From positions 186,001 through 250,000 of the forward strand of contig NZ_JADPRZ010000001.1 of NCBI RefSeq assembly GCF_017347095.1: a stretch of DNA of 64,000 bases, read 5' to 3'. The stretch comes from Sporosarcina sp. E16_8 (GTDB taxonomy: Bacteria > Bacillota > Bacilli > Bacillales_A > Planococcaceae). Below the pieces are notes generated by a model, which saw nothing but the letters and a program-made list of their open reading frames with translations, ran no database searches and had not been told where the DNA came from. This document shows, piece after piece, positions 21,532-51,801 of the stretch; the first letter of the stretch is position 1; each line of letters opens with the position of its first letter. The translations under genes were made by a program, and so were the position numbers.

Positions 21532-22881
21532 TTACAGTTCCATTACTGCATTGATAAATTGATCGCCCCTGGCTTCGAAACTTGGGTACTGATCCCAACT
21601 AGCACAGGCGGGTGATAGCAGGATAATATCCCCCGCTACAGTAAGCGGATAGGATTTTTGCACAGCTTCCTTCATATCTTCAGCCGCCATAATAATTTTG
21701 ACGCCGCATGACGCTGCGAATTTTGAAAAATCCTCGGCTGTTTCTCCGACAGCGATGACAGCTTTTACATCGCTCATATGAGGCCGTAACTCTTCAAATG
21801 ACTGTCCTCGATCCAACCCACCGGCAATTAGAATAGTCGGTATGTCAAACGCAGCTAACGCACTTTTCGTAGCCAGTGTATTCGTTGCTTTTGAGTCATT
21901 ATAAAACTTCCGGCCTTTTAATTCTTTAACGAATTGCATGCGATGTCGAACACCAGTAAAGGAACTTAGCACGCTCTCAATTGCTTTTTTGTCACACCCT
22001 AAAAGGATTGCAGCCGCAGTTGCAGCAAGTATATTTTCGAGATTATGTTGGCCCGGCAACTTGATGACGGATCGCAATACATAAGGTTCCCCATTCCAGT
22101 ATATTTTCTCATCATCGGCGGATATACCGGTTTCTTTCATGCCAGTTAAAGAAAAAGGGACTTTCACAGCAGATGAACAAGCCGCATGCTGTCGAAGCTT
22201 CGGCTGATCATCATTGTATATAAAGTAATCTTCTACCGTTTGATTTTTGGTGATGCCGTATTTTGCAATCGCATACGCTTCAGAAGTTCCATGATAATCG
22301 AGATGTGCATCATACAAATTCGTCCATATAGCGATTTTGGGTCGGAATGTATCTATCCCCATTAATTGGAAGGATGATGCCTCTAGGACGATAATGTCTT
22401 CTTCCGTAGCCTTTTCGGCAACCGTGCAAGCGACCGTCCCAATATTTCCCGCAATAAGTGGGTGCTTGCTACCAATATTAAGCATATGGTACAGCAACGT
22501 TGTTGTTGTCGTTTTACCGTTTGACCCTGTAATCCCCACAATCGGTGCTTCACTTATCCTGTAAGCAAGTTCAATTTCTGTCCACACCGGAATTCCTTTT
22601 CCGATTGCTTCCACAACTACTGAATTACTATAAGGGATTCCTGGATTCTTCACAATAATGTCATATCCCGCGTCAAGAATATCGGCAGGATGACCACCAC
22701 ATATAACTCGGATTCCTTTCAAACGAAGCTCTGCCGCCTCTTCATTGCCCACTTCTGGTGATGAATCATTAACCGTTACATGGGCACCAGCTGCATGCAA
22801 AAGCGCTGATGCAGCACAACCACTTTTCGCAAGGCCAAGAACAAGTATTTTCATTCCGTTAAACTGATTAGCATTTTTCAC
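21532..22881 (-). CDS. murD: UDP-N-acetylmuramoylalanine--D-glutamate ligase
   Basis: MurD adds D-glutamate to UDP-MurNAc-L-Ala. The three Mur ligase domains are recognisable: an N-terminal Rossmann-like domain (KILVLGLAKSGCAAS), the ATP-binding P-loop VGITGSNGKTTTT near residue 115, and the C-terminal domain with KFYNDSKATNTLAT near residue 317. 449 aa is normal. The start is the GTG at 22881, 8 nt after GGAGG and directly adjacent to the mraY stop codon. Confidence 0.96.
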   Translation of the reverse strand: MKNANQFNGMKILVLGLAKSGCAASALLHAAGAHVTVNDSSPEVGNEEAAELRLKGIRVICGGHPADILDAGYDIIVKNPGIPYSNSVVVEAIGKGIPVWTEIELAYRISEAPIVGITGSNGKTTTTTLLYHMLNIGSKHPLIAGNIGTVACTVAEKATEEDIIVLEASSFQLMGIDTFRPKIAIWTNLYDAHLDYHGTSEAYAIAKYGITKNQTVEDYFIYNDDQPKLRQHAACSSAVKVPFSLTGMKETGISADDEKIYWNGEPYVLRSVIKLPGQHNLENILAATAAAILLGCDKKAIESVLSSFTGVRHRMQFVKELKGRKFYNDSKATNTLATKSALAAFDIPTILIAGGLDRGQSFEELRPHMSDVKAVIAVGETAEDFSKFAASCGVKIIMAAEDMKEAVQKSYPLTVAGDIILLSPACASWDQYPSFEARGDQFINAVMEL

Positions 22882-23853
22882 TTACATCACCTCCAACAAG
22901 ACAGGGACTATTGCCGCCAAAAACGCGACTCCCCAAAAAACAATAACAATTTTCCATTCGGACCAACCTGATAATTCAAAATGGTGGTGAATGGGACTCA
23001 TTTTAAATACCCGTTTACCCGTCGTTTTGAAACTTATGACTTGGATAATAACGGAAAGCGTTTCAATGACATAAACAATTCCAATGATGACAAGTAGGAA
23101 TTCCTGTTTAATTAAAACTGACATCATCGCGAGTGCCCCACCTAGTGCCAAGGATCCCGTGTCCCCCATGAATACTTTGGCTGGCTTGACATTGAAAACT
23201 AAAAAACCAAGCATTGCTCCTGTAACCACAAACGCAAAGACTGCAATATCATGTTGGCCGTATATAAGGGCATGCACGCCAAAAGCAGCAAAGGCGATAG
23301 ATGATGTCCCCGCAACAAGTCCATCCAGTCCATCAGATAGATTTACTGCATTGGAAAATCCTACAAGCCAAAAAATAAGGAATGCAACATAGAAAACACC
23401 CAGTTCAATTTCAAATTCTGTGAATGGTATTTGTACCGCAGTATCGAATGGTCCTAACTTCAATAGGAAGAATGCAGCAACTGCAACGATAATTTGGCCA
23501 ATCAGCTTTTGAATAGAAGTGAGCCCAAGATTCCTTTTCAAAACGACTATAATAAAGTCATCTAGAAAACCGATGATGCCAAAACCTACAAAAACGAGCA
23601 ACAAGACAATCGTCTGTGTCGTCAGCACGCCATATATGTATGAAAGGGCGAGCGTCGAAATGATGATTGATCCGATAAAAATAAGCCCGCCCATCGTAGG
23701 TGTACCAGCCTTTTTCTGATGGGTTTTAGGGCCTTCCTCCCGGATACTCTGTCCAAACTTCAATCTCCTAAGGGCTGGAATAATAACAAATCCCAATAGT
23801 ATTGAAATGATAAACGCGACCGCAATGGCCGTCAATGTGGTGACAAGTGTCAT
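22882..23853 (-). CDS. mraY: Phospho-N-acetylmuramoyl-pentapeptide transferase
   Basis: An integral membrane enzyme that attaches phospho-MurNAc-pentapeptide to undecaprenyl phosphate to make lipid I. It has about ten membrane helices. The family motifs are GFLDDFIIVVLKRN (catalytic Asp pair), NAVNLSDGLDGL near residue 173 and FKMSPIHHHFE near residue 285. 323 aa is typical. The ATG at 23853 follows AAGGAG. In B. subtilis murE would lie immediately upstream; here spoVD is only 70 bp away and murE is absent. Confidence 0.96.
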   Translation of the reverse strand: MTLVTTLTAIAVAFIISILLGFVIIPALRRLKFGQSIREEGPKTHQKKAGTPTMGGLIFIGSIIISTLALSYIYGVLTTQTIVLLLVFVGFGIIGFLDDFIIVVLKRNLGLTSIQKLIGQIIVAVAAFFLLKLGPFDTAVQIPFTEFEIELGVFYVAFLIFWLVGFSNAVNLSDGLDGLVAGTSSIAFAAFGVHALIYGQHDIAVFAFVVTGAMLGFLVFNVKPAKVFMGDTGSLALGGALAMMSVLIKQEFLLVIIGIVYVIETLSVIIQVISFKTTGKRVFKMSPIHHHFELSGWSEWKIVIVFWGVAFLAAIVPVLLEVM

Positions 23854-23923
23854 AATATTTTTCTCCTTCTAACTTGTGATACAGCCACTTATTTATGCTG
23901 CATCAGACTTTGCATTTAAATGA

Positions 23924-25819
23924 TTATTCAGTATAAACGTGGATAACATCATCAACCGTGATTAATGTTTCAGCAACAGGTAACTGGTATTTCACTTGTT
24001 CTCCAGAACCATGCCATTCGATACGATACGTATACAATTGGCTTGTGATTTTCCCTTTTGTCATTCCCGTCAGATCAGGGACTCGATGTGCTATTGGGTC
24101 GCCCCACCTGTATTCTTTTTCAATTTGCCCTTCCCTGCTCGTTATGCCGGCTAGCGGGGCGATTTCTTCAATAATTCGACCCACGATAGGCGCCGCTATT
24201 ACGCCTCCGAACTGAATGGAGTTTTTCGGACTATCTATCGCTATATAGACAAGTAATTCTGGATCATCTGCTGGTGCAAAACCGATAAACGAAACGATAT
24301 AATCGCCGTCTTTATAAACACCATCGACAACTTTTTGTGCAGTTCCAGTCTTTCCACCTACACGCAGTCCATCTGTGAACGCATTACGGCCGGAACCATT
24401 TGCAACAACTGATTCTAGCGCTTCCCTTACTTGCTTGGATGTTTCCTCACTGATTACCTGACGCTGCATTTCCGGACCAAATGATTGAAGCGTCTTTCCC
24501 TTATCATCTGTAATTTCCTTCACGATATACGGACGATAAAGATAACCGCCGTTTATCGCTGCTGCAACAGCTTGAACTTGTTGAATCGGCGTCACCGAAA
24601 TCCCTTGACCAAATGCGGTTGTCGCCTGTTCCACAGGACCAAAGTTTTTTTCAGAAAATAGAATCCCTTTTGATTCGCCTGCAATTCCTGATCCCGTTGA
24701 TTCTCCAAAACCGAAGTCCTTGATGTATTTACTTAACTTTTTAGGCCCTAATCTCTGCCCGATTTCAACAAATCCTGGATTGCATGAGTTTTCAACGACT
24801 TCGAGAAATGTCTGATCCTTATGTCCTTCTCTTTTCCAACAGCGCAATCTCGCTTTTCCGATCATTGAATAGCCAGGATCGTAAAAATGCTCCTTATCAA
24901 GGTCAATGACTTTTTCTTCGAGTCCAGCAGCAAGTGTTAGAATTTTGAATGTCGAACCAGGCTCGAAAGTCATCCAAACAGGTAAGTTGCGATTGTAAAT
25001 ACTTGGGTCTACGTTTTGATATTCCGCTGGGTGAAAAGTCGGTGCAGAGGCAATCGAAAGCAATTCGCCTGTTTTAGGGTTCATGACTATCGCAAGTGCT
25101 TGAGTGGCATCATACTTATCCATCGCCTGCAACAATTCACGCTCGACAACTTCCTGCATCCCCAAATCGATTGTCAACTCAACCGAAGCACCTTTTTCAC
25201 CAGTTTTAAAACCGTCGTCCACATGTGGTAGCGGGATTCCTTTAGCATCCGTATATAAGCGGATCCTATCGCCCGTTCCTCGCAGAATTTCATCGTATGC
25301 GTATTCAATGCCTGCCAACCCATTACCATCATATCCCGTAAAGCCAACCAATCTCGATAGTAGCTCTCCGTTTGGATAATGCCTTGCAAAATCAACGCCT
25401 GTATATAAGCCATCTATTTGCAGAAGGGCTATTTCATCCGCTTGCTCTTTGGTAATATTTTTTCCTTCAGGCGCTATTTTAATCATAACTTCTCTTTTGG
25501 CCATTTTCTCTTCCAGTTTGGCTGCGTCTACATCTAGAATACTTGCAAGCGCAATCGCTGCACTTTTCACTTCACGGTTTTGAGATGGCATGAAATAAAG
25601 TGTCGGCGCCAATCTATTGCCGACAATTAGGCCACCATTGCGATCAACAATTTCCCCCCGCACTCCACCGAATGGGATTTCACGATCCCAACTCGCTTCC
25701 GCACGCTCTTTCAGCAATTCATGTTTAATGATTTGTACATAGAATAACTTTGCAACGACCATTCCAAGACAAATTAGAAATATGACAAATACTGCTCGTA
25801 ACCTTTTTTTAGATTGCAA
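23924..25819 (-). CDS. spoVD: Stage V sporulation protein D (class B PBP)
   Basis: A class B transpeptidase for cortex peptidoglycan that partners SpoVE. It has one N-terminal membrane helix (about residues 8-28), a dimerisation/pedestal domain, and a transpeptidase domain with STFK at 289-292, SCN at 345-347 and KTGT at 490-493. A single PASTA domain covers about 575-631. 631 aa fits SpoVD. The start (TTG at 25819, QSKKRLRAVF) has no strong ribosome site and is uncertain. Confidence 0.94.
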   Translation of the reverse strand: MQSKKRLRAVFVIFLICLGMVVAKLFYVQIIKHELLKERAEASWDREIPFGGVRGEIVDRNGGLIVGNRLAPTLYFMPSQNREVKSAAIALASILDVDAAKLEEKMAKREVMIKIAPEGKNITKEQADEIALLQIDGLYTGVDFARHYPNGELLSRLVGFTGYDGNGLAGIEYAYDEILRGTGDRIRLYTDAKGIPLPHVDDGFKTGEKGASVELTIDLGMQEVVERELLQAMDKYDATQALAIVMNPKTGELLSIASAPTFHPAEYQNVDPSIYNRNLPVWMTFEPGSTFKILTLAAGLEEKVIDLDKEHFYDPGYSMIGKARLRCWKREGHKDQTFLEVVENSCNPGFVEIGQRLGPKKLSKYIKDFGFGESTGSGIAGESKGILFSEKNFGPVEQATTAFGQGISVTPIQQVQAVAAAINGGYLYRPYIVKEITDDKGKTLQSFGPEMQRQVISEETSKQVREALESVVANGSGRNAFTDGLRVGGKTGTAQKVVDGVYKDGDYIVSFIGFAPADDPELLVYIAIDSPKNSIQFGGVIAAPIVGRIIEEIAPLAGITSREGQIEKEYRWGDPIAHRVPDLTGMTKGKITSQLYTYRIEWHGSGEQVKYQLPVAETLITVDDVIHVYTE

Positions 25820-25894
25820 TTGTATAAACGTCCGCAGCGGTTACACACCTCTCGTTTTTCTATCAACGTATGATGTGACATGGACGGCTATTCG

Positions 25895-28096
25895 TTAACC
25901 TCCTACAACGCTCTCTTCTTTGGTGTCTTCCTCTATGGGTTTATGGATCTCTGACGGCGACTGCAGCTTAATAACAACTGGATCTTCTAGTCCGATTACA
26001 GACCCTTTTGAAAGGCTTTGCTCAGTTACATAGCCATCGCCGTTAAGCCGTAAATCAAGCCCAGATAACATTTTATACGAAAGCACCATTTTTTTCGACC
26101 ATCCAGTGAAATCAGGCAATGCGGTTACACCTTTTGTCTGCAATAGGACGACTGAGCCTTCCACGAGTTTCGTACCGGCATATGGATATTGTATATCGAT
26201 TTCCCCACCCTCACCAATGATTTCAGGGACGAAGCCATCTGCCAACAATTTTGCAATTGCTTCAGTCGAATTTTTTCCAGTATAATTTTTTAGAACAGTT
26301 GCCTCAACTATGTCTTCTCCATTGGGTACGATGTTCATATAGCGTAAGCTGTTATCCATAATAGAGGTGAACAGTTTCGAAACCGGATCAGAACCGATTT
26401 CCCCAGCTTTCAGTTTCGGCTGCTGTACAAGTACATACGTTAACAACTGAGGATCTTCTGCCGGTGCCATACCGAGAAATGAATACAGATAATTCCCGTG
26501 TCCCGCTAAATAACCTCTCCCCGAAGGTTTCGGAATTTCCGCAGTACCTGTTTTACCACCTACTGTATAGCCATTAAGTGCAAACTTTTTACCGGTCCCA
26601 TATTCAGACGTAACTGTCGAAGCAAGTAATTCCCTTACTTCTTTTGCGGTCTTTGCAGAAATCGGACTCCCATTTTCCTCTGGTTTCTGATCCTGTATGA
26701 CTTTATCTGTATTCGGATCAGTAATTTTATCAATCACATATGGTTTCATCATAACACCATCATTAGCGATTGCAGTTGCCGCTTGCACCATCTGCATTAA
26801 CGTAACAGTTGAACCTTGACCAAAAGATGTTGTCAATCGTTCAATCGGATACGTATCTAGAATTATTCCCGCCGCTTCATTAGGTAAATCAATTCCGGTC
26901 TTTTCTCCGAATCCAAACTTCCGTAAATACTCGATATATGTTTTATCGCCCATCCGTTCGAGTAAATAAGCCATCGATACGTTCGAAGAGCGTTGGAAGC
27001 CTTGCAAAAATGAAATATAACCCCAACCTGTAATATTGTGGTCGCGAATTGTATCACCGTAAAGTGTATAACTACCAGATTTATAGAAGTCAGTTGGAAC
27101 CCATTTTTCTTCTTCAATCGCCGCAGCTACTGTGAACATTTTAGTTGTAGAGCCCGGTTCGATTGTTGTTTCAACAGCCTGATTCAACCAGTTCTCAGTA
27201 AGCCCTTCACGGGTAGATGGATGAAATGCGGGACGCTGACTCATTGCCAATATTTTGCCCGTCTTTGGATCCGCTACTACAGCCAGCATTTTTTTTGGTG
27301 AATATTCACTTTCAACACGATTCATCGCATCTTCCATGAAATTTTGAATAGTCTTGTCGAGAGTTAACTTAATTTCATAGCCGTCTTTGGCAGCGATAAT
27401 TGCTTCTTCTGCTTTCGGTAACATGAAACCGAATCCATCTGATTTAAAATCTACTCTGCCGTCAGTACCGTTTAACTGTTTATTATATGTTTTTTCCAAA
27501 CCCATTTTACCGACTGTGGATATATTACCTTTATCATCTTCTTCCTTCATCGCAAAGCCTATTAGATACGACGCAAATACGCCGTTCGGATAATATCTTT
27601 TTTGGTCTTCAATGAAATGGATTCCTGGCAGCTTCATCTTTTTTATCGCCAAAACTGTTTCGTGACTAATATCACGGCCAGCCTTTCCAAATTCCACTTG
27701 ATATGTATCTGCTTTCACATTCGTCAGGCGCGATACAATTGCATCTTTTTCAAGGGGAATATAGTTGGCAAGCACTTCAGCCGTTTTTTTAATATCAGTG
27801 ATATGTAATGGTTTTTTAGAATCTTTGCTTGCTTTTTCACTCAATACGGCGATGAGCCGGTAACTCAACGTATCAGAGGCAATTAGCTCACCGTTGCGAT
27901 CGACAATCGTTCCCCTGTCCGCTTTCAATACCGATTCTCTCGCGTATTTCGACTCTGCAAGCGTCGCCATCACTTTTCCTTCCGCTTGTCCTGTTGCTTG
28001 AATGAATACTATTCTTCCAAACAAAAGGAAAAAGAGCCCTCCGTATACCAAAAACATCAGAAAGGCTCCCCATTGGAATCGAAACTTTTTTTTCAT
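25895..28096 (-). CDS. pbpB: Penicillin-binding protein 2B, divisome transpeptidase
   Basis: The essential septal class B PBP. The 733-aa protein has one membrane helix (about residues 10-32), STTK at 316-319, SSN at 370-372, KTGT at 515-518 and two C-terminal PASTA domains (about 595-715). The start is the ATG at 28096, which overlaps the ftsL stop as ATGA, so translation is coupled. The in-frame extension to 28162 reads inside ftsL. The tandem pbpB-spoVD order is as in Bacillus. Confidence 0.95.
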   Translation of the reverse strand: MKKKFRFQWGAFLMFLVYGGLFFLLFGRIVFIQATGQAEGKVMATLAESKYARESVLKADRGTIVDRNGELIASDTLSYRLIAVLSEKASKDSKKPLHITDIKKTAEVLANYIPLEKDAIVSRLTNVKADTYQVEFGKAGRDISHETVLAIKKMKLPGIHFIEDQKRYYPNGVFASYLIGFAMKEEDDKGNISTVGKMGLEKTYNKQLNGTDGRVDFKSDGFGFMLPKAEEAIIAAKDGYEIKLTLDKTIQNFMEDAMNRVESEYSPKKMLAVVADPKTGKILAMSQRPAFHPSTREGLTENWLNQAVETTIEPGSTTKMFTVAAAIEEEKWVPTDFYKSGSYTLYGDTIRDHNITGWGYISFLQGFQRSSNVSMAYLLERMGDKTYIEYLRKFGFGEKTGIDLPNEAAGIILDTYPIERLTTSFGQGSTVTLMQMVQAATAIANDGVMMKPYVIDKITDPNTDKVIQDQKPEENGSPISAKTAKEVRELLASTVTSEYGTGKKFALNGYTVGGKTGTAEIPKPSGRGYLAGHGNYLYSFLGMAPAEDPQLLTYVLVQQPKLKAGEIGSDPVSKLFTSIMDNSLRYMNIVPNGEDIVEATVLKNYTGKNSTEAIAKLLADGFVPEIIGEGGEIDIQYPYAGTKLVEGSVVLLQTKGVTALPDFTGWSKKMVLSYKMLSGLDLRLNGDGYVTEQSLSKGSVIGLEDPVVIKLQSPSEIHKPIEEDTKEESVVGG

Positions 28097-28464
28097 TGTC
28101 CAGACACAACCTTTACGTTGTTCTCGTTTGGATTCAAGCCAAGTTCCTTCGCTTTTTTCCATATCCGATCATATGTAGATTTTTCTTTCACTTGGATGGA
28201 CAATTCCATATTTTGTTTTGTTGTTTCTGAAAAATCCCTGCCAAGCAATTGCACTTCCCTGTTTGTATAATTAATTTGGGATTGTGTATGTAGAATCATT
28301 GTTGAGAATAGGACTAGGATTGTTGCAAACAGCACGAACAGGAATTTCTCCCCGGCAGAAAAGACTTTTCGAGAAGGTCGTACTTGAGTCTGTTTTCTAG
28401 GAACTACTGGCGTTTCAACTTCACGTATAGCTGTCGACTGGAATTTTCTTTGTTCTAATGCCAT
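28093..28464 (-). CDS. ftsL: Cell division protein FtsL
   Basis: A small bitopic divisome protein of 123 aa. It has a basic cytoplasmic N-terminus (KQTQVRPSRKVF), one membrane helix at about residues 44-63, and an extracytoplasmic coiled coil (NREVQLLGRDFSETTKQNME) of leucine-zipper type. It lies between rsmH and pbpB and couples to pbpB by a 4-nt ATGA overlap. Confidence 0.93.
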   Translation of the reverse strand: MALEQRKFQSTAIREVETPVVPRKQTQVRPSRKVFSAGEKFLFVLFATILVLFSTMILHTQSQINYTNREVQLLGRDFSETTKQNMELSIQVKEKSTYDRIWKKAKELGLNPNENNVKVVSGQ

Positions 28465-46070: not shown

Positions 46071-46131
46071 AGATTTCCCCTCTTTTCCTAACCCATACAA
46101 TACCATAGGACTGAAAAGCCCTGCAACAAAA

Positions 46132-46310
46132 GAAAAGCGTAAGGCGTCGTGTAGCCCCGACAAGCGCTGGAGGGCCCCAGGAAAAAGGCGTTCTTTGCCT
46201 TTATATTCAAGAAGGAAGGCAGTCTAAAACGCCACTTCCTGTGGCTACGACTGCATGACCTACATCCTGTAGGCCCAAGCGACTCGAGGGGCTGACGCCT
46301 GAAGCTGGAC
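46132..46310. repeat. GTCTAGAC-family repeat, first of a tandem pair
   Basis: GAAAAGCGTAAGGCGTCGTG at the left, an internal palindrome around GCGCTGGAGGGCCCCAGG, the module GAAGGCAGTCTAAAACGCCA, and GACGCCTGAAGCTGGAC at the right. Confidence 0.92.
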
Positions 46311-46315
46311 AAAAA

Positions 46316-46498
46316 GAAAAGCGGAAGGCGTCGTGTAGCCCCGACAAGCGCTGGAGGGCCCCAGGATAAAGGCGCTCTTTGCCTTAATATTCAAGAAGGA
46401 AGGCAGTCTAAAAACGCCACGTCCTGTGGCAACGACTGCATGACCTACATCCTATAGGCCCAAGCGACTCGAGCATCTGGCGCTATAGCTAGACACTG
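46316..46498. repeat. GTCTAGAC-family repeat, second of a tandem pair
   Basis: Over 90 percent identical to the copy at 46132-46310 and in the same orientation, starting GAAAAGCGGAAGGCGTCGTG and ending TATAGCTAGACACTG. Only 5 bp separate the two copies. Confidence 0.92.
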
Positions 46499-46570: not shown

Positions 46571-47482
46571 ATGGGTAGAAAAACAAATGTGGCTCTTACA
46601 GTAGGTGCGGCAGGCGTTGCCGCGTGGGCGGCTTCGAAAGTTGTCGCAAAACCGGTACCACGTGAAGGTAAAAAAGCACTTGCTTTCGATAAACCAGTCA
46701 TTCTTGCCCACCGAGGTGGCCTAGCAGAAGCTCCTGAGAATACATTAGCCGCATTTTCAAAATCAGCCGAGCTTGGCGTGCATGGATTTGCGGTCGATAT
46801 CCGGTTAACAAAAGACGAGGAAATCATCGTTTTCCACGATGATTTTGCAGATCGAACAACAGATTTCTCTGGAAGAATTGCCGACTATACCCTAAGCGAA
46901 TTGAAAATGGCTGATGCAGGTTATCAGTTTGAAGACGAGGGCGGAAATCATTCTTATCGCGGAAAGAATGTAGAAATCCTTTCCCTTCGAGAGCTGATAC
47001 AAAAGTTTCCGCATATGCTAATTGCTATCAATCTGAAAGATCCTCCTGATACATACGAAGGAAGCTTGATACCTTCCAAACTCTGGAGACTTCTTGAAGA
47101 GCTGGGTGCTGAAGACTGTGTCGCTGTTACAAGTTCATATGATGAACAGACTGATAGATTCAACTTATATGCACAAAATAAAGTAGCTACCGGTGCGGGT
47201 GATAACGAAGTAAAAAAAGCATATGCCTCTTTTACAAGTTTGTTTGGTCATCTCTATAGCCCGCGTGCCGACTTGTTCAGTATTCCAGAAAAACTGGGCG
47301 TATTTTCTCTTGGCACTGAAAGTTTCATCAAGTTTCTCAGCCAAATTAATATTCCCGTTTATTTTGAAGGCGTGAATGATAAAGAGTCATTCGTTAAACT
47401 TCTACATGTTGGAGCAGCAGGTTTCATCACAGATAGACCGTCTATCGCTATGAAAGTCGTGCAAGAAAACATAGCTGAATAA
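46571..47482 (+). CDS. Glycerophosphodiester phosphodiesterase-like protein with altered metal site
   Basis: A 303-aa TIM-barrel GDPD-family protein with a hydrophobic N-terminus (about residues 6-22) that may export or anchor it. HRGG at 49-52 and PENTL at 57-61 are intact, as is FHDD near residue 93. The usual G-x-E-x-D metal motif reads GFAVDIR (Glu to Ala), and the second metal Glu in I-E-x-K reads INLKD (Glu to Asn). Both substitutions are expected to weaken or abolish ordinary metal-dependent hydrolysis. GGAGG precedes the ATG. It is monocistronic, with its own promoter and terminator. Confidence 0.88.
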   Translation: MGRKTNVALTVGAAGVAAWAASKVVAKPVPREGKKALAFDKPVILAHRGGLAEAPENTLAAFSKSAELGVHGFAVDIRLTKDEEIIVFHDDFADRTTDFSGRIADYTLSELKMADAGYQFEDEGGNHSYRGKNVEILSLRELIQKFPHMLIAINLKDPPDTYEGSLIPSKLWRLLEELGAEDCVAVTSSYDEQTDRFNLYAQNKVATGAGDNEVKKAYASFTSLFGHLYSPRADLFSIPEKLGVFSLGTESFIKFLSQINIPVYFEGVNDKESFVKLLHVGAAGFITDRPSIAMKVVQENIAE

Positions 47483-47540: not shown

Positions 47541-47938
47541 TGTCTAGACTCCAGGCGCCTGTTCTTGCTTTGGAAATCATAAAATCTCGTACTGTGGATA
47601 AACTGCGAAAGGCGATATTTCACGTCTAGACTCCAGCGCCTAGAGGCTCGGAGGCCCACAGGATGTGGGTCACGCAGACATTGCCCCAGGACGCGGCGTA
47701 CTTTGGCTGTGTTCCTTTATTTGTCGGTCCGGCTAGGAAGGATTGAACTGCATCCTTCCCGGGCAAAGAACGCCGCTTGGGGATGCAGGTCATGCAGTCG
47801 TTGCGAACTTAGACTGCCTATCCTTTACCCGTCTTATGCCTGCCGCGGGCCTACAGGATGTAGGTCATGCAGCTGTTGCCACAGGAAGTGGCGTACTTAG
47901 GCTGCGTTCATTTGTAACAGGCGCTTCCGCTTTTGTTT
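47541..47938. repeat. GTCTAGAC-family repeats between the phosphodiesterase-like gene and ylbF
   Basis: GTCTAGACTCCAGGCGCCTG begins at 47541 as a broken end. A full copy starts GTCTAGACTCCAGCGCC at 47623, continues through modules with ACAGGATGTGGGTCACGCAG and GATTGAACTGCATCC, and ends AGGCGCTTCCGCTTTTG at 47919-47935. The end lies 3 bp from the ylbF stop codon. No gene lies in this 456-bp gap. Confidence 0.88.
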
Positions 47939-48379
47939 TTAAGCCGAACACGAACAGCCTCCGCCAGTGCCGCAACTTCCACCACAAGATGAGTCGGAAA
48001 AGAATGCACTGCCAGCTGGAACTTTTACTTCATCCGAAACCGATTTAGCGATGATTGAACCAATTTCGTCAAATATATATTGAACGTCATTCTCAGCCAA
48101 TCGAAGCGCCGCAACCCTGTCGTTCATATCAAGCTCACGTTTTTGAACTCGGATGCTTTTCATTACTATATTATGATCCGGATGGTATCTTCCGAATCGT
48201 TGGACTTCTTCATAACGTTCCTTCATTGTCGCGAACTCTTGAATTGATTTCACAAGTTCCGTGTCCGAATAAACATCATCATGGGCTTTACGGTATTCAG
48301 CCACCGCTTCAGAAGAAAGCAGCATTGCCGTTAGGTCTTCTGCATCTTCAATGATGGTGATCCATTCGTCTGTCATCAT
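47939..48379 (-). CDS. ylbF: YlbF, regulator of sporulation, competence and RNA processing
   Basis: A 146-aa helical protein of the YlbF/YmcA family. The family core is KERYEEVQRFGRYHPDHN near residue 50 followed by VQKRELDMNDRVAALRLAEN. The Cys-rich tail CGGSCGTGGGCSC matches the tail that, in the B. subtilis YlbF-YmcA-YaaT complex, helps bind an iron-sulfur cluster. That complex affects Spo0A activation and RNase Y. The start is ATG 48379, 8 nt after GGGG. It lies 57 bp downstream of a murE, with no clear terminator between. Confidence 0.93.
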   Translation of the reverse strand: MMTDEWITIIEDAEDLTAMLLSSEAVAEYRKAHDDVYSDTELVKSIQEFATMKERYEEVQRFGRYHPDHNIVMKSIRVQKRELDMNDRVAALRLAENDVQYIFDEIGSIIAKSVSDEVKVPAGSAFFSDSSCGGSCGTGGGCSCSA

Positions 48380-48436
48380 AGAATGATCCCCTCCAATCAT
48401 CCATATATCATAACAGAAGAGATGGTATACATGCAC

Positions 48437-49876
48437 CTATTCAATATTTATTTCTTTAATATCCAAAAATGTTTTTTCAGAAAGAGCACGTGCTGCTTCA
48501 TCAAGATCAGAAAATGGTATCAGGCCATCAGCAGTGTGCTGCGATTTTTCATGACCTTTGCCAGCAATAAGGACGATATCACCCGGTGCTGCACAGAAAA
48601 TCGCTTTCCGAATCGCATATTTCCGATCGAGTACAGCTTCAATCGACGAACACTCTCCTCCGAAGCCCTCCATAATATCCGAAATAATTGCTTTAGGATC
48701 TTCATTTCTCGGATTATCTGATGTCACAATGACACTTGAAGAATACAGAACAGCGAGTTCGCCCATCTCAGCTCTTTTTCCTTTATCTCGTTGGCCGCCG
48801 CAACCAAAGACTGTAATCAGTCTTCCGTAACATGAATTGGACAGCGTCTGCAATACCGCTTCGAGCGCATCTGGCGTATGGGCATAATCTACGTACACTT
48901 TTACACCATCGCGCTCTAATTGCTGCAATCTACCTTCTGGAAGCACCAGAAGTTCGCAGTGCACTAAAATGTCATCTAAGTAATAGCCAAGGACAAGAAG
49001 TGCACTAATTGCCGCTAATGTATTCATCCGATTATAATGACCCAGTATATCCGGATTCATTTTCAGTTCTGGGACTCGGACGTCAGCCGACGGATTCACC
49101 CCAAAATAAACCAGTGGAACAGTTGCATTTTTAACCATTTTCACACATTGTTGATCATCATTGTTAACAATGATTGTTTTCGCCATTTGGATTAAACGCT
49201 TTTTAGCATTAATATAAGCAGTTTTTCCACCATGTTCTTCGAAATGATCCGTACCAATATTCAAAAATATCCCTATATCGATGTCGCAATGATCTAAACG
49301 ATTTGAAGACAATCCAAGTGAAGATGCTTCAAGAACAATATGACTAACATTTTCATCAACACATTTTTTTAGTAATGGATGAAGATATTCCGCGGGTAAT
49401 GTTGTCATTTTTGGGCAATCATAGTCAATCTTAATGCCATCGATAAAAATGCCCGTCGTACCGATAACAGCCACCCGATTTCCAAATTTGCTTAGTAACT
49501 GACCGATGAAATGTGTGACTGTCGTTTTTCCATTTGTTCCAGTCACAGCGATCACCTTCATTCTTTTAGAGGGGTTACCAACTAATTGTGCACTTGCATG
49601 GGACATGAATTTTGTGCAATCCGAAACCGTAATGACAACAACACCAGCAGGTATTTCAGACAAATTCGTTCTATCAATAACAATAGCTGCAGCACCTTGT
49701 TCAATCGCTTTTTTAATATACATCGCACCATCGCTTTGATTGCCTTTCCTCGCTACAAACACAGATCCTTTCTTTACCCGTGAAGAATCCTCGGTTATTC
49801 CCGTGACAACAATCCTGAGTTCCCCGCCATTGACTGTACAAGGCCAGTCTTTTATAAGCTCCGTTAAAAACAGCAC
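48437..49876 (-). CDS. murE: UDP-MurNAc-L-Ala-D-Glu--meso-diaminopimelate ligase type MurE, outside dcw
   Basis: MurE adds the third amino acid of the peptidoglycan stem peptide. The P-loop VTGTNGKTT is at about residues 111-119, the carbamylated-lysine region is YINAKKRLI near 225, and VDYAHTPDALEAVL is near 329. The specificity motif is DNPR at 387-390 and the terminal motif GKGHE is present; DNPR with GKGHE is the meso-diaminopimelate type, whereas L-lysine enzymes differ there. I choose GTG 49876, 6 nt after GGGG; the frame extends to 49957 without support. The usual DHLDYHGT reads DHFEEHGG, marking a divergent paralogue. A sigma-K/sigma-E-like promoter lies upstream. Confidence 0.92.
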   Translation of the reverse strand: MLFLTELIKDWPCTVNGGELRIVVTGITEDSSRVKKGSVFVARKGNQSDGAMYIKKAIEQGAAAIVIDRTNLSEIPAGVVVITVSDCTKFMSHASAQLVGNPSKRMKVIAVTGTNGKTTVTHFIGQLLSKFGNRVAVIGTTGIFIDGIKIDYDCPKMTTLPAEYLHPLLKKCVDENVSHIVLEASSLGLSSNRLDHCDIDIGIFLNIGTDHFEEHGGKTAYINAKKRLIQMAKTIIVNNDDQQCVKMVKNATVPLVYFGVNPSADVRVPELKMNPDILGHYNRMNTLAAISALLVLGYYLDDILVHCELLVLPEGRLQQLERDGVKVYVDYAHTPDALEAVLQTLSNSCYGRLITVFGCGGQRDKGKRAEMGELAVLYSSSVIVTSDNPRNEDPKAIISDIMEGFGGECSSIEAVLDRKYAIRKAIFCAAPGDIVLIAGKGHEKSQHTADGLIPFSDLDEAARALSEKTFLDIKEINIE

Positions 49877-49911
49877 CACTCTCCCCTTCCCGAACATTTT
49901 TCTGTGAAAAT

Positions 49912-49964
49912 GAATATATTGAGAGCGAACATACTTTATCGTATGAAAAGAACTCAATGAACGT
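49912..49964. promoter_or_regulatory. Overlapping divergent sigma-E/sigma-K-like promoters
   Basis: CATACTTTATCGTATG (49930-49945) provides two -10 boxes. On the plus strand GAATATA (49912-49918) precedes CATACTTTA (49930-49938), a sigma-E-like pair with a short 11-nt gap. On the minus strand AC (plus 49963-49964), 17 nt, then CATACGATA (plus 49937-49945) fits the sigma-K pattern AC-N16/17-CATAnnnTA. Distances to the two start codons are about 48 and 61 bp. No TTGACA/TATAAT pair is seen in this interval. Confidence 0.65.
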
Positions 49965-49985
49965 CACGAAGAAAGTTGGGAGCTT

Positions 49986-50717
49986 ATGATCATCCAGAAA
50001 TTCGGTGGGGTAGCAATGAAAAATGAAGCAATGAGATTGAATTGCATTAACCATATAAAAGATGGACTGAATGAGTTTGGCGATGTCGTCGTAGTCGTAT
50101 CTGCAATTGGTCGCTATGGCGATCCTTATTCGACGGACAGCCTTCTTCAGCTCACGGATGCCTTTTCATCTTCAGCAGCCGCAAGCGACCTTGCAGTGTC
50201 GTGTGGTGAACTCATTGCTGCTGCAGTTATGTCTGCTGAACTAACACGGGCTGGCGTCCCAAACACGGTCCTGCACGGCATCCAGACTGGTATAATGACT
50301 TCTGGAGAATTTGGTGATGCCACGATTGACCACATCGACCCTGCCACTATTTTTGAATTCCTTAAACAAACCCGTTGTGTCATTATTCCAGGCTTTCAAG
50401 GAATTGATAACAACGGGCATGTCATGACACTTGGAAGAGGTGGCAGTGACTTATCTGCAATCGCGCTTGCTGCAGCACTCCAAGCCTCCCATGTAGAATT
50501 CTTTAAAGATGTACCTGGCGTTATGACTCATGATCCGCGCAAAGTAGAGAATCCCCGTAAAATTGACCTGCTGACGTTGGACGATTTCATTCAACTTCTA
50601 GATTGTGAAAGACCCGTCATTCAAAAACGGGCTGCATTACATGCAATAAAAACAGCGACACCTCTTTATATAAGAGGTGTCGCCAGTACGGAGACGGGAA
50701 CATGGATTATTCCGTGA
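49986..50717 (+). CDS. Short aspartokinase lacking ACT domains
   Basis: A 243-aa amino-acid-kinase-fold protein. IIQKFGGVAM is the aspartokinase N-terminal nucleotide motif (KFGGTS in most), GRGGSDLSAIALA near residue 151 is the catalytic loop, and DVPGVMTHDPRKV near residue 178 the aspartokinase signature. Ordinary aspartokinases continue with two ACT domains for lysine or threonine feedback; none is present here. Aspartyl phosphate feeds diaminopimelate, dipicolinate and lysine. The ATG at 49986 has a close GGGAG. The gene is divergent from the diaminopimelate-type murE. Confidence 0.88.
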   Translation: MIIQKFGGVAMKNEAMRLNCINHIKDGLNEFGDVVVVVSAIGRYGDPYSTDSLLQLTDAFSSSAAASDLAVSCGELIAAAVMSAELTRAGVPNTVLHGIQTGIMTSGEFGDATIDHIDPATIFEFLKQTRCVIIPGFQGIDNNGHVMTLGRGGSDLSAIALAAALQASHVEFFKDVPGVMTHDPRKVENPRKIDLLTLDDFIQLLDCERPVIQKRAALHAIKTATPLYIRGVASTETGTWIIP

Positions 50718-50749
50718 GCAGCAATGAATTTCATTGCTGCCTTTTTTCT
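50718..50749 (+). terminator. Aspartokinase terminator
   Basis: GCAGCAATGAA/TTTCATTGCTGC followed by CTTTTTT. The right arm overlaps the last codons of the convergent ylbC gene. Confidence 0.88.
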
Positions 50750-51801
50750 TCTGCAATCTCACGAATCATAACTTGTGTAAAATACTTTCCATATGCACCT
50801 GTCCCAAGATGCGTGACTTCTTTTTCAAACAGGACTTCACGGTGAGCGGGAGAATTAAGCCAACCATGGACCGCCTCTATTGCATCCACATAGTCAAAAG
50901 CAATATTTTCCCGGGCTTTACGATGTTCAATTCCCACTTCTTTTAACCTATCTGCAAGATTACCGGTCACAGGAGATTCATGGGAAAAGTAATTTTCATG
51001 CGCCATATCCTCACTATGTTTTCGCGCCACAACAGCTAGATCATAATCGCTCAAAAGTTCATTAAATCCATGATTTTTTCGATAAAGGTTAGTTAAATCG
51101 AAAATCTGACGCTCCATTGCCCGATCCACTTCCATCTGCATTGTTGACGATGGACGATTAGAACTGACGATTTCGCCCATATAAGCCATGTCATAGGGTT
51201 GGTGTAGAATTAGTGTAATTGGATCAATAAAACGAATCGCTTCCAATACCCCATCCACACCGTCAATATATAGCTGTGCATAGACATTTTCATATTCAAT
51301 AAGCAATCTATTTTTCACATCTTCACTGTTCAATGTAAATGTATAGATACTTTCCCCAATTTGTACAGCCACTTCTGACTCAACAATCGTAAATCGATGG
51401 ATGTCTTGCACATCCTGCCCAATCTCAAAAGGTTCAATATGGGAGGATAAATCTGCAGTATAAACTTGGTTTACTTTTCCTTCCCAAACACCTACCATTA
51501 ACTCCTGTTTTTGTTCATATATCCACCAATCGTACCCATAGTTCGACGGCTCAATGCGGTCTGGTTTACCTATCTGTTCAAATAGACCGTCTACACTCTT
51601 ACCAACAAGCAAGGATAGGCCAGTTTCAGGCCGCGCAGCTTGCTGTAGCGGCAAACCATCTCCGCTTCCAGGTACTGGAATGGCCGTTCCATGTTTCACA
51701 GGTGACTCAAGTGGTTTATTCTCTTTTACTCGATCATCCATAATATAAAATATCAATAGGACGATGATAAGCAAAAGTATTATTTTCCAAAGTACTTTCA
51801 T
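50731..51801 (-). CDS. ylbC: CAP-domain protein YlbC
   Basis: A 356-aa exported or anchored protein. Residues 1-22 form a signal or anchor helix. An N-terminal CAP-associated domain covers about residues 60-200 (IGKPDRIEPSNYGYDWWIY). A CAP/SCP domain covers about 225-350, with VDRAMERQIFDLTNLYRKNH, HSEDMAHENYFSHESP and ENIAFDYVDAIEAVHGWLNSPAHR. This is the arrangement of B. subtilis YlbC. The function is unknown. The ATG at 51801 is preceded by AAAGTAGG. Confidence 0.9.
   Translation of the reverse strand: MKVLWKIILLLIIVLLIFYIMDDRVKENKPLESPVKHGTAIPVPGSGDGLPLQQAARPETGLSLLVGKSVDGLFEQIGKPDRIEPSNYGYDWWIYEQKQELMVGVWEGKVNQVYTADLSSHIEPFEIGQDVQDIHRFTIVESEVAVQIGESIYTFTLNSEDVKNRLLIEYENVYAQLYIDGVDGVLEAIRFIDPITLILHQPYDMAYMGEIVSSNRPSSTMQMEVDRAMERQIFDLTNLYRKNHGFNELLSDYDLAVVARKHSEDMAHENYFSHESPVTGNLADRLKEVGIEHRKARENIAFDYVDAIEAVHGWLNSPAHREVLFEKEVTHLGTGAYGKYFTQVMIREIAEEKRQQ

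Follow-up and report, generated by a model that had tools for sequence, protein, structure and literature searches.

A second MurE, encoded head to head with a short aspartokinase, as a candidate diaminopimelate ligase for the spore cortex in Sporosarcina and its relatives

A stretch of 64,000 nucleotides from the genome of Sporosarcina sp. E16_8, here called the window, contains a gene for a MurE protein, which we refer to as MurE2, located head to head with a gene for a short aspartokinase. MurE2 is probably a diaminopimelate (DAP) ligase specific for the spore cortex, which in half the genera would be accompanied by an entry kinase free of regulation. The vegetative wall of Sporosarcina holds lysine, and the cortex of such species holds DAP. 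The evolutionary signature of MurE2 is firm and its regulatory signature is good. A first-pass annotation of the window, made from the letters alone, had described a MurE with DNPR and GKGHE motifs facing an aspartokinase of 243 amino acids without regulatory domains. Both open reading frames were present, head to head, at the positions in Table 1, and their domains and motifs were verified. The window comes from contig C1 of a genome of 4.38 Mb (G000), in which the MurE was 94% identical to that of Sporosarcina sp. BP05, and the closest named relatives were Sporosarcina.

The 2 MurE proteins of strain E16_8

MurE2 contained the 3 Mur ligase domains PF01225, PF08245, and PF02875, all above the Pfam cut-offs, and scored 421.1 bits against TIGR01085 (cut-off 257.3) and 435.4 bits against NF001126, the NCBIfam model for DAP ligases (cut-off 373). 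The motif DNPR marks DAP ligases, and changes to Asp or Ala mark lysine ligases. MurE2 carried DNPRNEDP and AGKGHE, and the residues D388, N389, and R391 as well as GKGHE444 were unchanged in all 25 MurE2 proteins aligned from the family (L140 was left out); the Pro of DNPR was replaced by Ser, Ala, or Cys in genera g9, g11, and g17 of the sample described below.

The middle domain of the Mur ligases was matched by 7 proteins of the E16_8 genome, 2 of which, MurE2 itself and a protein here called L001, were matched by the MurE2 query at E ≤ 1e-20. L001 contains DDPR, and its best solved relative was the L-lysine ligase of Staphylococcus aureus (4c12) with 427.9 bits, followed by the next relative at 313.8 bits; a second murE of the L-lysine type, for which the first-pass annotation had suggested searching the genome, is thus at hand. 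The best solved relatives of MurE2 were mostly DAP ligases, and the S. aureus enzyme ranked 12th with 170.9 bits. The motif DDPR was found in all 26 lysine-type MurE copies. In a phylogeny of 70 rows, the 25 MurE2 proteins formed a single clade with 100/100 support, while the 26 lysine-type copies clustered with the S. aureus enzyme (100/99; 88/95 for the 26 alone), such that the L-lysine-ligase clade of the S. aureus enzyme contained L001 and not MurE2. We infer that MurE2 is a DAP ligase and L001 a lysine ligase.

Several results weigh against this assignment. The lysine ligase of Thermotoga maritima (4bub) ranked 8th among the solved relatives of MurE2 with 218.3 bits, close to the 223.1 bits of the Escherichia coli DAP ligase. 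Because DDPR retains the Arg of the classical DNPR, only one residue of that motif differs in L001. Furthermore, MurE2 was not placed inside the DAP ligases encoded in the dcw clusters of Bacilli in the 70-row tree, where its branch was long, with the caution that long branches call for. Finally, L001 outscored MurE2 on the DAP model (537.4 bits), which makes NF001126 no judge of lysine versus DAP, and the NCBIfam models were rejected as a discriminator.

It was also noted, by eye, that the lysine-type murE adjoins a prfC-like gene (L152, 2852-6114), a neighbor that we take to be shared with S. aureus. Additional MurE-like paralogs were present away from the MurE2 locus in g4, g5, g9, g12, g13, and g19 (L193 to L202), in 4 of which (L198 to L201) VDHPG replaced DNPR. 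These and the further MurE-like genes L180, L182, L203, and L204 were rejected as MurE2, none of them having kinase, YlbF, or CAP neighbors. A lysine-type MurE of 480 bits was not found in the genomes of L204 (G127, g14), L182 (G013, g4), and L203 (G012, g4), which instead carried a divergent MurE of 286 to 295 bits without DNPR or DDPR, perhaps, at a guess, of the ornithine type.

Distribution of MurE2 and its link to sporulation

To describe the distribution, we used 261 genomes from 19 genera of the family (labeled g1 to g19). The E-value of a single MurE2 query was no test of presence in genera with split hits; presence was therefore scored with a profile of 25 rows, with 6 candidates scored per genome, plus the single-query search, in which MurE2 was plain in the 2 genomes missed by the profile (G174 and G193). 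As marker of sporulation we used SpoIVA rather than DpaA, because the DpaA of the E16_8 genome is too divergent.

MurE2 was identified in 193 of the 261 genomes, comprising all genomes of g1, g2, g6, g8, g9, g11, g12, g14, g15, g17, g18, and g19, and was not found in any of the 68 genomes of g3, g4, g5, g7, g10, g13, and g16. A SpoIVA sequence was present in 197 genomes, 192 of them over the cut-off and 5, as judged by E-value, below it (G222, G244, and the g4 remnants G012, G013, and G014), and these 197 are the 193 genomes with MurE2 plus 4 of g4. Hence, MurE2 was found in 193 of the 197 genomes with a SpoIVA sequence and in none of the 64 without. The 4 genomes of g4 are a point against a strict link, in particular G015, whose SpoIVA match was near full-length (5.4e-141).

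The best SpoIVA matches in g4 (G012 to G015) ranged in E-value from 5.6e-10 to 5.4e-141, which looks like a SpoIVA gene decaying after a recent loss of sporulation.

The genera lacking SpoIVA fell in about 5 places of a tree of the lysine-type MurE proteins, which included 1 to 3 genomes per genus without g4 and g14 and had some joins below full support: g5 with g13, g16 near g1 and g2, g7 with g15 and g19, g3, and g10 near g8. This suggests that MurE2 and sporulation were lost jointly about 5 times. A tie of MurE2 to sporulation is thus supported by its distribution, together with the putative promoter described below.

Conservation of the gene pair

The short kinase was found in 111 genomes, namely in every sampled genome of g1 (68), g2 (8), g12 (9), g14 (19), g15 (4), and g19 (3); the kinase match was partial in G198 and G208. 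It was located head to head with MurE2 in 110 of these, 109 by coordinates and one (G130) in locus L147, and in the remaining fragmented genome, G214, the 2 genes were on separate contigs. An arrangement kept in 110 of 111 genomes is not there by chance. The gene order CAP-(kinase)-MurE2-YlbF was also kept in the representative loci fetched, a comparison that the first-pass annotation had called for, although MurE2 and YlbF were separated by up to about 1.2 kb in some of them, L136 showed no YlbF, and L191 showed no CAP. Among named records, 7 contained the pair: 4 Sporosarcina, Filibacter tadaridae, Rummeliibacillus stabekisii, and one titled Arthrobacter. The last of these (L018), titled Arthrobacter beigongshangensis, has a Sporosarcina-like MurE2/kinase locus with 73% identity, and the name looks wrong.

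On the other side stand 82 SpoIVA-positive genomes of g6, g8, g9, g11, g17, and g18 that contained MurE2 without the short kinase; their best kinase matches had E-values of 1e-34 or weaker, which is the range of full-length aspartokinases. These genera formed one nested clade in the MurE2 tree (100/100), and a single loss of the kinase would therefore be the simplest reading. The first-pass annotation had proposed a sporulation precursor module, and the present comparisons support its main inference; the kinase is an optional part, since it is missing in 6 SpoIVA-positive genera.

Identity and origin of the short kinase

The short kinase had a single Pfam domain, PF00696. Its best NCBIfam model was NF006068, which it matched with 243.9 bits, below the full-length cut-off of 474, and only over residues 3 to 245 of the 405 in the model. 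The C-terminal regulatory half is therefore missing, including the ACT domains of DapG. All 9 solved relatives found were aspartokinases. In a phylogeny of the kinases, 18 short kinases formed one clade (100/100) that grouped with DapG and not with LysC (100/100) and was reached by a long branch (1.3).

Full-length aspartokinases of the LysC class and the AK3 class were present in the E16_8 genome, and a full-length DapG was not found there. Its dipicolinate operon contained ymxG, a ymxH-like gene, dpaA, dpaB, asd, dapA, and an RNase J-like gene, where the names other than dpaA and dpaB were assigned by eye, with nothing between asd and dapA, the usual site of dapG. In DapG loci from other families, dapG was flanked by asd and dapA in 30 of 30, with dpaB nearby in 29. 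No full-length DapG above the cut-off was found in 28 genomes of the family (18 genera), nor in 61 genomes of a second, overlapping draw, and it was found in 103 of 151 genomes of the class, a draw that included 12 genomes of the family. From these comparisons, the short kinase is a truncated and relocated DapG.

The motifs K[FY]GG, CGE, and GRGGSD were retained in all 18 aligned short kinases. Other changes in the same 18 proteins count against an unaltered function: KFGGTS has become K[FY]GG[VI]A, [FY]TDV has become [FY]K[DN]V, and the GAKVxHPRA segment of DapG is lost. Moreover, at 20 aligned columns (plus one gap column) that were invariant in 4 DapG proteins, none of the 18 had the DapG residue. 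A feedback-free aspartokinase is the likeliest function, but this prediction is not safe because KFGGTS and [FY]TDV were changed in every one.

As to the DpaA of the E16_8 genome (L151, 6336-7166, minus strand; L148, 1489-2319), only its C-terminal part was matched, scoring 56.8 bits where the cut-off is 319.65, and the adjoining DpaB was above the cut-off.

The shared intergenic region and its putative promoter elements

The first-pass annotation had proposed a common promoter region of 110 bp; the region exists, but measures 106 bp when murE2 starts at GTG 49879. We compared the upstream sequences of 26 MurE2 loci from 12 genera with those of 26 lysine-type murE genes and of 55 open reading frames in the window. 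A sporulation-type -10 box in its strict form, CATANNNTA, was present no more than 170 nt upstream of murE2 in 24 of the 26 loci, in 23 of these at a conserved site, as compared to 0 of 26 lysine-type murE genes and 3 of 55 window reading frames. Among 48 distinct pair loci, CATANNNT was located on the murE strand 54 to 61 nt from the kinase start in all 48, the exact sequence CATACGAT was found on that strand in 41, and 34 had CATANNNT on the kinase strand, as many as had CATANNNTA on both strands. In the genera without the kinase, the box was placed 20 to 33 nt upstream of murE2 (13 loci). Among the control DapG upstream sequences, 2 of 30 had CATANNNT anywhere in 100 nt.

The 20-nt block GTCACGAAGAAAGTTGGGAG ahead of the kinase likely contains the ribosome-binding site of this gene, and its core [GC][TA]CACGA was present in 46 of the 48 distinct pair loci. 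A short peptide encoded in the block was considered and dropped, as its frame relative to the kinase varies between species (by eye).

For Bacillus subtilis, the sigmaK consensus is given as KCACM / GCATANNNTA (PMC3416734) and the gap between the -35 and -10 elements as 14 to 16 nt (PMC517825). Of the 26 best sigmaK-like matches, 17 had TGACA, TGACG, TGTCA, or TCACA at a distance of 14 to 15 nt. The mean best sigmaK-like score was 9.35 versus 8.03 (standard deviation 0.78) in base-shuffled upstream sequences, and 3.5% of the shuffles attained 9.35. The scores for sigmaE (10.62 versus 10.19 in shuffles) and sigmaA (8.62 versus 8.08) barely differed from those of the shuffles. A sigma-70 type site was not found in 49700-50150, a weak null since only 0.8 were expected in shuffles. 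Control by sigmaA was rejected for want of such a site and for its score, and sigmaE with a standard -35 was rejected on its score.

The case for a sigmaK-like promoter has its weak points. The -35 element fits imperfectly: most genera have one of the 4 sequences just named, and the others have TAACA, TGGCA, GTGTC, GTAGC, or TTAGC. Three of the 26 loci (L136, L140, and L144) had their best sigmaK-like score at another place. The loose form CATANNNT was found in all 26 MurE2 loci, but also in 5 of the 26 lysine-type murE genes and in 13 of the 55 window reading frames; with this less clean control, the case rests on the strict CATANNNTA and its fixed position.

Features of the locus and the dcw cluster

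The start of murE2 was corrected from TTG 49957 to GTG 49879. A ribosome-binding site, AAGGGGAG, is visible by eye ahead of GTG 49879, and an N-terminus resembling ELxKDWPC is common to most of the homologs compared. GTG 49879 is the likely start, from which the length of MurE2 and that of the intergenic region in Table 1 follow.

Table 1. Positions in the window of murE2, the short kinase, and associated features
Feature	Position	Strand	Remark
MurE2 (UDP-MurNAc-tripeptide synthetase, predicted meso-diaminopimelate ligase for the spore cortex)	48437..49879	-	480 aa, GTG 49879
Putative short aspartokinase, DapG-derived catalytic domain without ACT domains	49986..50717	+	243 aa
Divergent intergenic region common to both genes	49880..49985	.	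106 bp
Putative sigmaK/sigmaE-type -10 box CATACGATA for murE2	49937..49945	-	
-35-like TGACG	49962..49966	-	3/5 to KCACM, 15 nt from 10-base -10 element
-10-like CATACTTTA facing the kinase	49930..49938	+	2-bp overlap with murE2 box
Conserved 20-nt block GTCACGAAGAAAGTTGGGAG ahead of the kinase start	49963..49982	+	overlaps murE2 -35
YlbF-family gene	47939..48436	-	directly downstream of murE2, conserved neighbor
YlbC-like CAP-domain gene	50731..51801	-	conserved neighbor on the other side
dcw cluster (murD, mraY, SpoVD-like, PBP) without murE	21532..28162	-	same window as murE2

The first-pass annotation had placed murE2 outside the dcw cluster, and this was confirmed in the window itself: the cluster has genes for murD (21532), mraY (22882), a SpoVD-like protein (23924), a penicillin-binding protein (PBP, 25895), and rsmH (28481), no murE was found among them, and the gap between the SpoVD-like gene and mraY is 70 bp. 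For comparison we took the 17 best-scoring MurE loci that lay outside the family but in the same class. A SpoVD-like gene was located beside murE in all 17, mraY was also visible in 9, and the 17 dcw-type MurE proteins carry DNPR. Outside the family, none of 228 genomes of the class attained MurE2 scores, the best being 451 bits versus 612 to 782 for the listed MurE2-bearing family members.

Repeats of 48 to 109 nt, both direct and inverted and up to 94% alike, were located at 46121-46483 and 47634-47913, on either side of a GDPD-family gene (46571-47482).

Interpretation and alternatives

In the proposed mechanism, the vegetative wall would be of the lysine type and built with L001, and the cell would switch to DAP for the spore cortex through the dedicated MurE2, which a sigmaK-like promoter would turn on in the mother cell during sporulation. 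The catalytic core of DapG would have left the dipicolinate/asd/dapG/dapA operon and shed its regulatory ACT domains, and the de-regulated kinase might let aspartate flow into DAP, as well as dipicolinate, when both are needed. The ligase specificity, the activity of the kinase and its freedom from feedback, and the timing and compartment of expression are all predicted features in this scheme. In a broader version, the spore formers of the family, with their non-DAP vegetative wall, would have one cortex-precursor module, in which a captured DapG core freed of regulation and a dedicated DAP ligase share a single divergent promoter of the late mother cell; it would have formed in the ancestor of the family, upon the departure of dapG from the dipicolinate operon and of murE from dcw, and would have been lost with sporulation about 5 times, with the kinase dropped in one sub-clade. 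To this version we give an even chance.

It is possible, if unlikely, that MurE2 is indeed the cortex DAP ligase while the short kinase is a neofunctionalized amino-acid-kinase fold, acting on another substrate or as a partner of MurE2. The replacement of Ser by Ala in KFGGTS and of Thr by Lys in [FY]TDV, the loss of GAKVxHPRA, the 20 columns (and one gap column) without a DapG residue, the long branch to the short clade, and the absence of the kinase from 6 SpoIVA-positive genera all point in that direction, whereas the retention of K[FY]GG, CGE, and GRGGSD, the exclusively aspartokinase nature of the solved relatives, and the empty dapG site, which would otherwise leave the cell without an enzyme of the DapG class, speak for the original activity. 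We consider it quite improbable that MurE2 also serves vegetative growth or the recycling of peptidoglycan and that its link to sporulation reflects nothing but shared ancestry. The genomes are related, with far fewer independent events than genomes, and loose -10-like matches precede 5 of the 26 lysine-type murE genes, but about 5 separate joint losses, the absence of MurE2 from all 64 genomes without SpoIVA, and the 24 of 26 versus 0 of 26 count for CATANNNTA argue for a sporulation-specific MurE2.

Control of the pair by sigmaE in the early mother cell, rather than by sigmaK in the late mother cell, is a doubtful but serious alternative. Among 18 family spoIVA upstream sequences (used of 20; L228 and L229 were left out), 17 had CATANNNT no more than 60 nt from the start used, so that the -10 element alone cannot separate sigmaE from sigmaK; CATACGATA itself was found upstream of spoIVA in 2 genomes of g12, and cortex genes such as spoVD are under sigmaE in B. 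subtilis (PMC3533761). What speaks for sigmaK is that no TYATATTT -35 was found, that the sigmaE score was barely above the shuffles, and that a sigmaK-type -35-like element was located at the proper distance in 17 of the 26 best matches. It was also observed that the dpaA operon carries CATATGATG ahead of ymxH. As regards the origin of MurE2, we see the scales as balanced between relocation of the old dcw murE in the ancestor of the family and acquisition of a copy from outside: a dcw cluster without murE and the DNPR shared with the 17 dcw-type MurE proteins suggest relocation, and the long branch outside the other Bacilli, subject to the caution given above, as well as the lack of an equally close relative in the 228 genomes, speak against it.

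With MurE2 read as the cortex ligase, the locus offers candidate genes for an activity that is said to have been known for about 50 years, it makes testable why lysine-walled bacteria return to DAP for the spore cortex, and it may serve as a genomic marker of cortex-making ability in the family. The kinase is seemingly a feedback-controlled enzyme that was reduced to its core and came under a developmental promoter. If the broader version is true, a developmental switch of wall chemistry would be encoded in 2 genes.

Comparison with known systems

A sporulation-induced activity of a DAP-adding ligase was reportedly described by Tipper, Pratt, and Linnett in the 1970s in Bacillus (Lysinibacillus) sphaericus, and to our knowledge no gene has been assigned to it. 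In the open-licence literature, searched by title and start of abstract and, for several hits, by passages, no paper naming the genes was found, nor anything on the pair; the first-pass annotation was likewise not aware of a description of the two genes as a unit. Among the references of PMC5962572 is a study of a meso-diaminopimelate peptidoglycan hydrolase made by sporulating B. sphaericus.

The likeness to the B. sphaericus system is that of a lysine-walled spore former making a separate DAP ligase for the cortex; there it was an activity, whereas here it is a candidate gene with a family-wide distribution, a putative promoter, and a partner kinase, in Sporosarcina-like species. MurE2 shares the Mur ligase domains and DNPR with the DAP ligases encoded by the dcw murE of Bacilli, but is located outside dcw, has a putative sporulation-type promoter, forms a distinct clade, and is the second MurE of its genome. 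The S. aureus MurE is the closest solved relative of L001, whereas MurE2, with its DNPR, is remote from it. The short kinase groups with DapG, the aspartokinase I of the dipicolinate/asd/dapG/dapA operon in Bacillus, from which it differs by the lack of ACT domains, the position beside murE2, and the 2 changed motifs. Judged by these comparisons, the MurE2 locus appears to consist of known enzymes in a new arrangement, in which a dedicated MurE of the cortex type is optionally joined by a DapG core.

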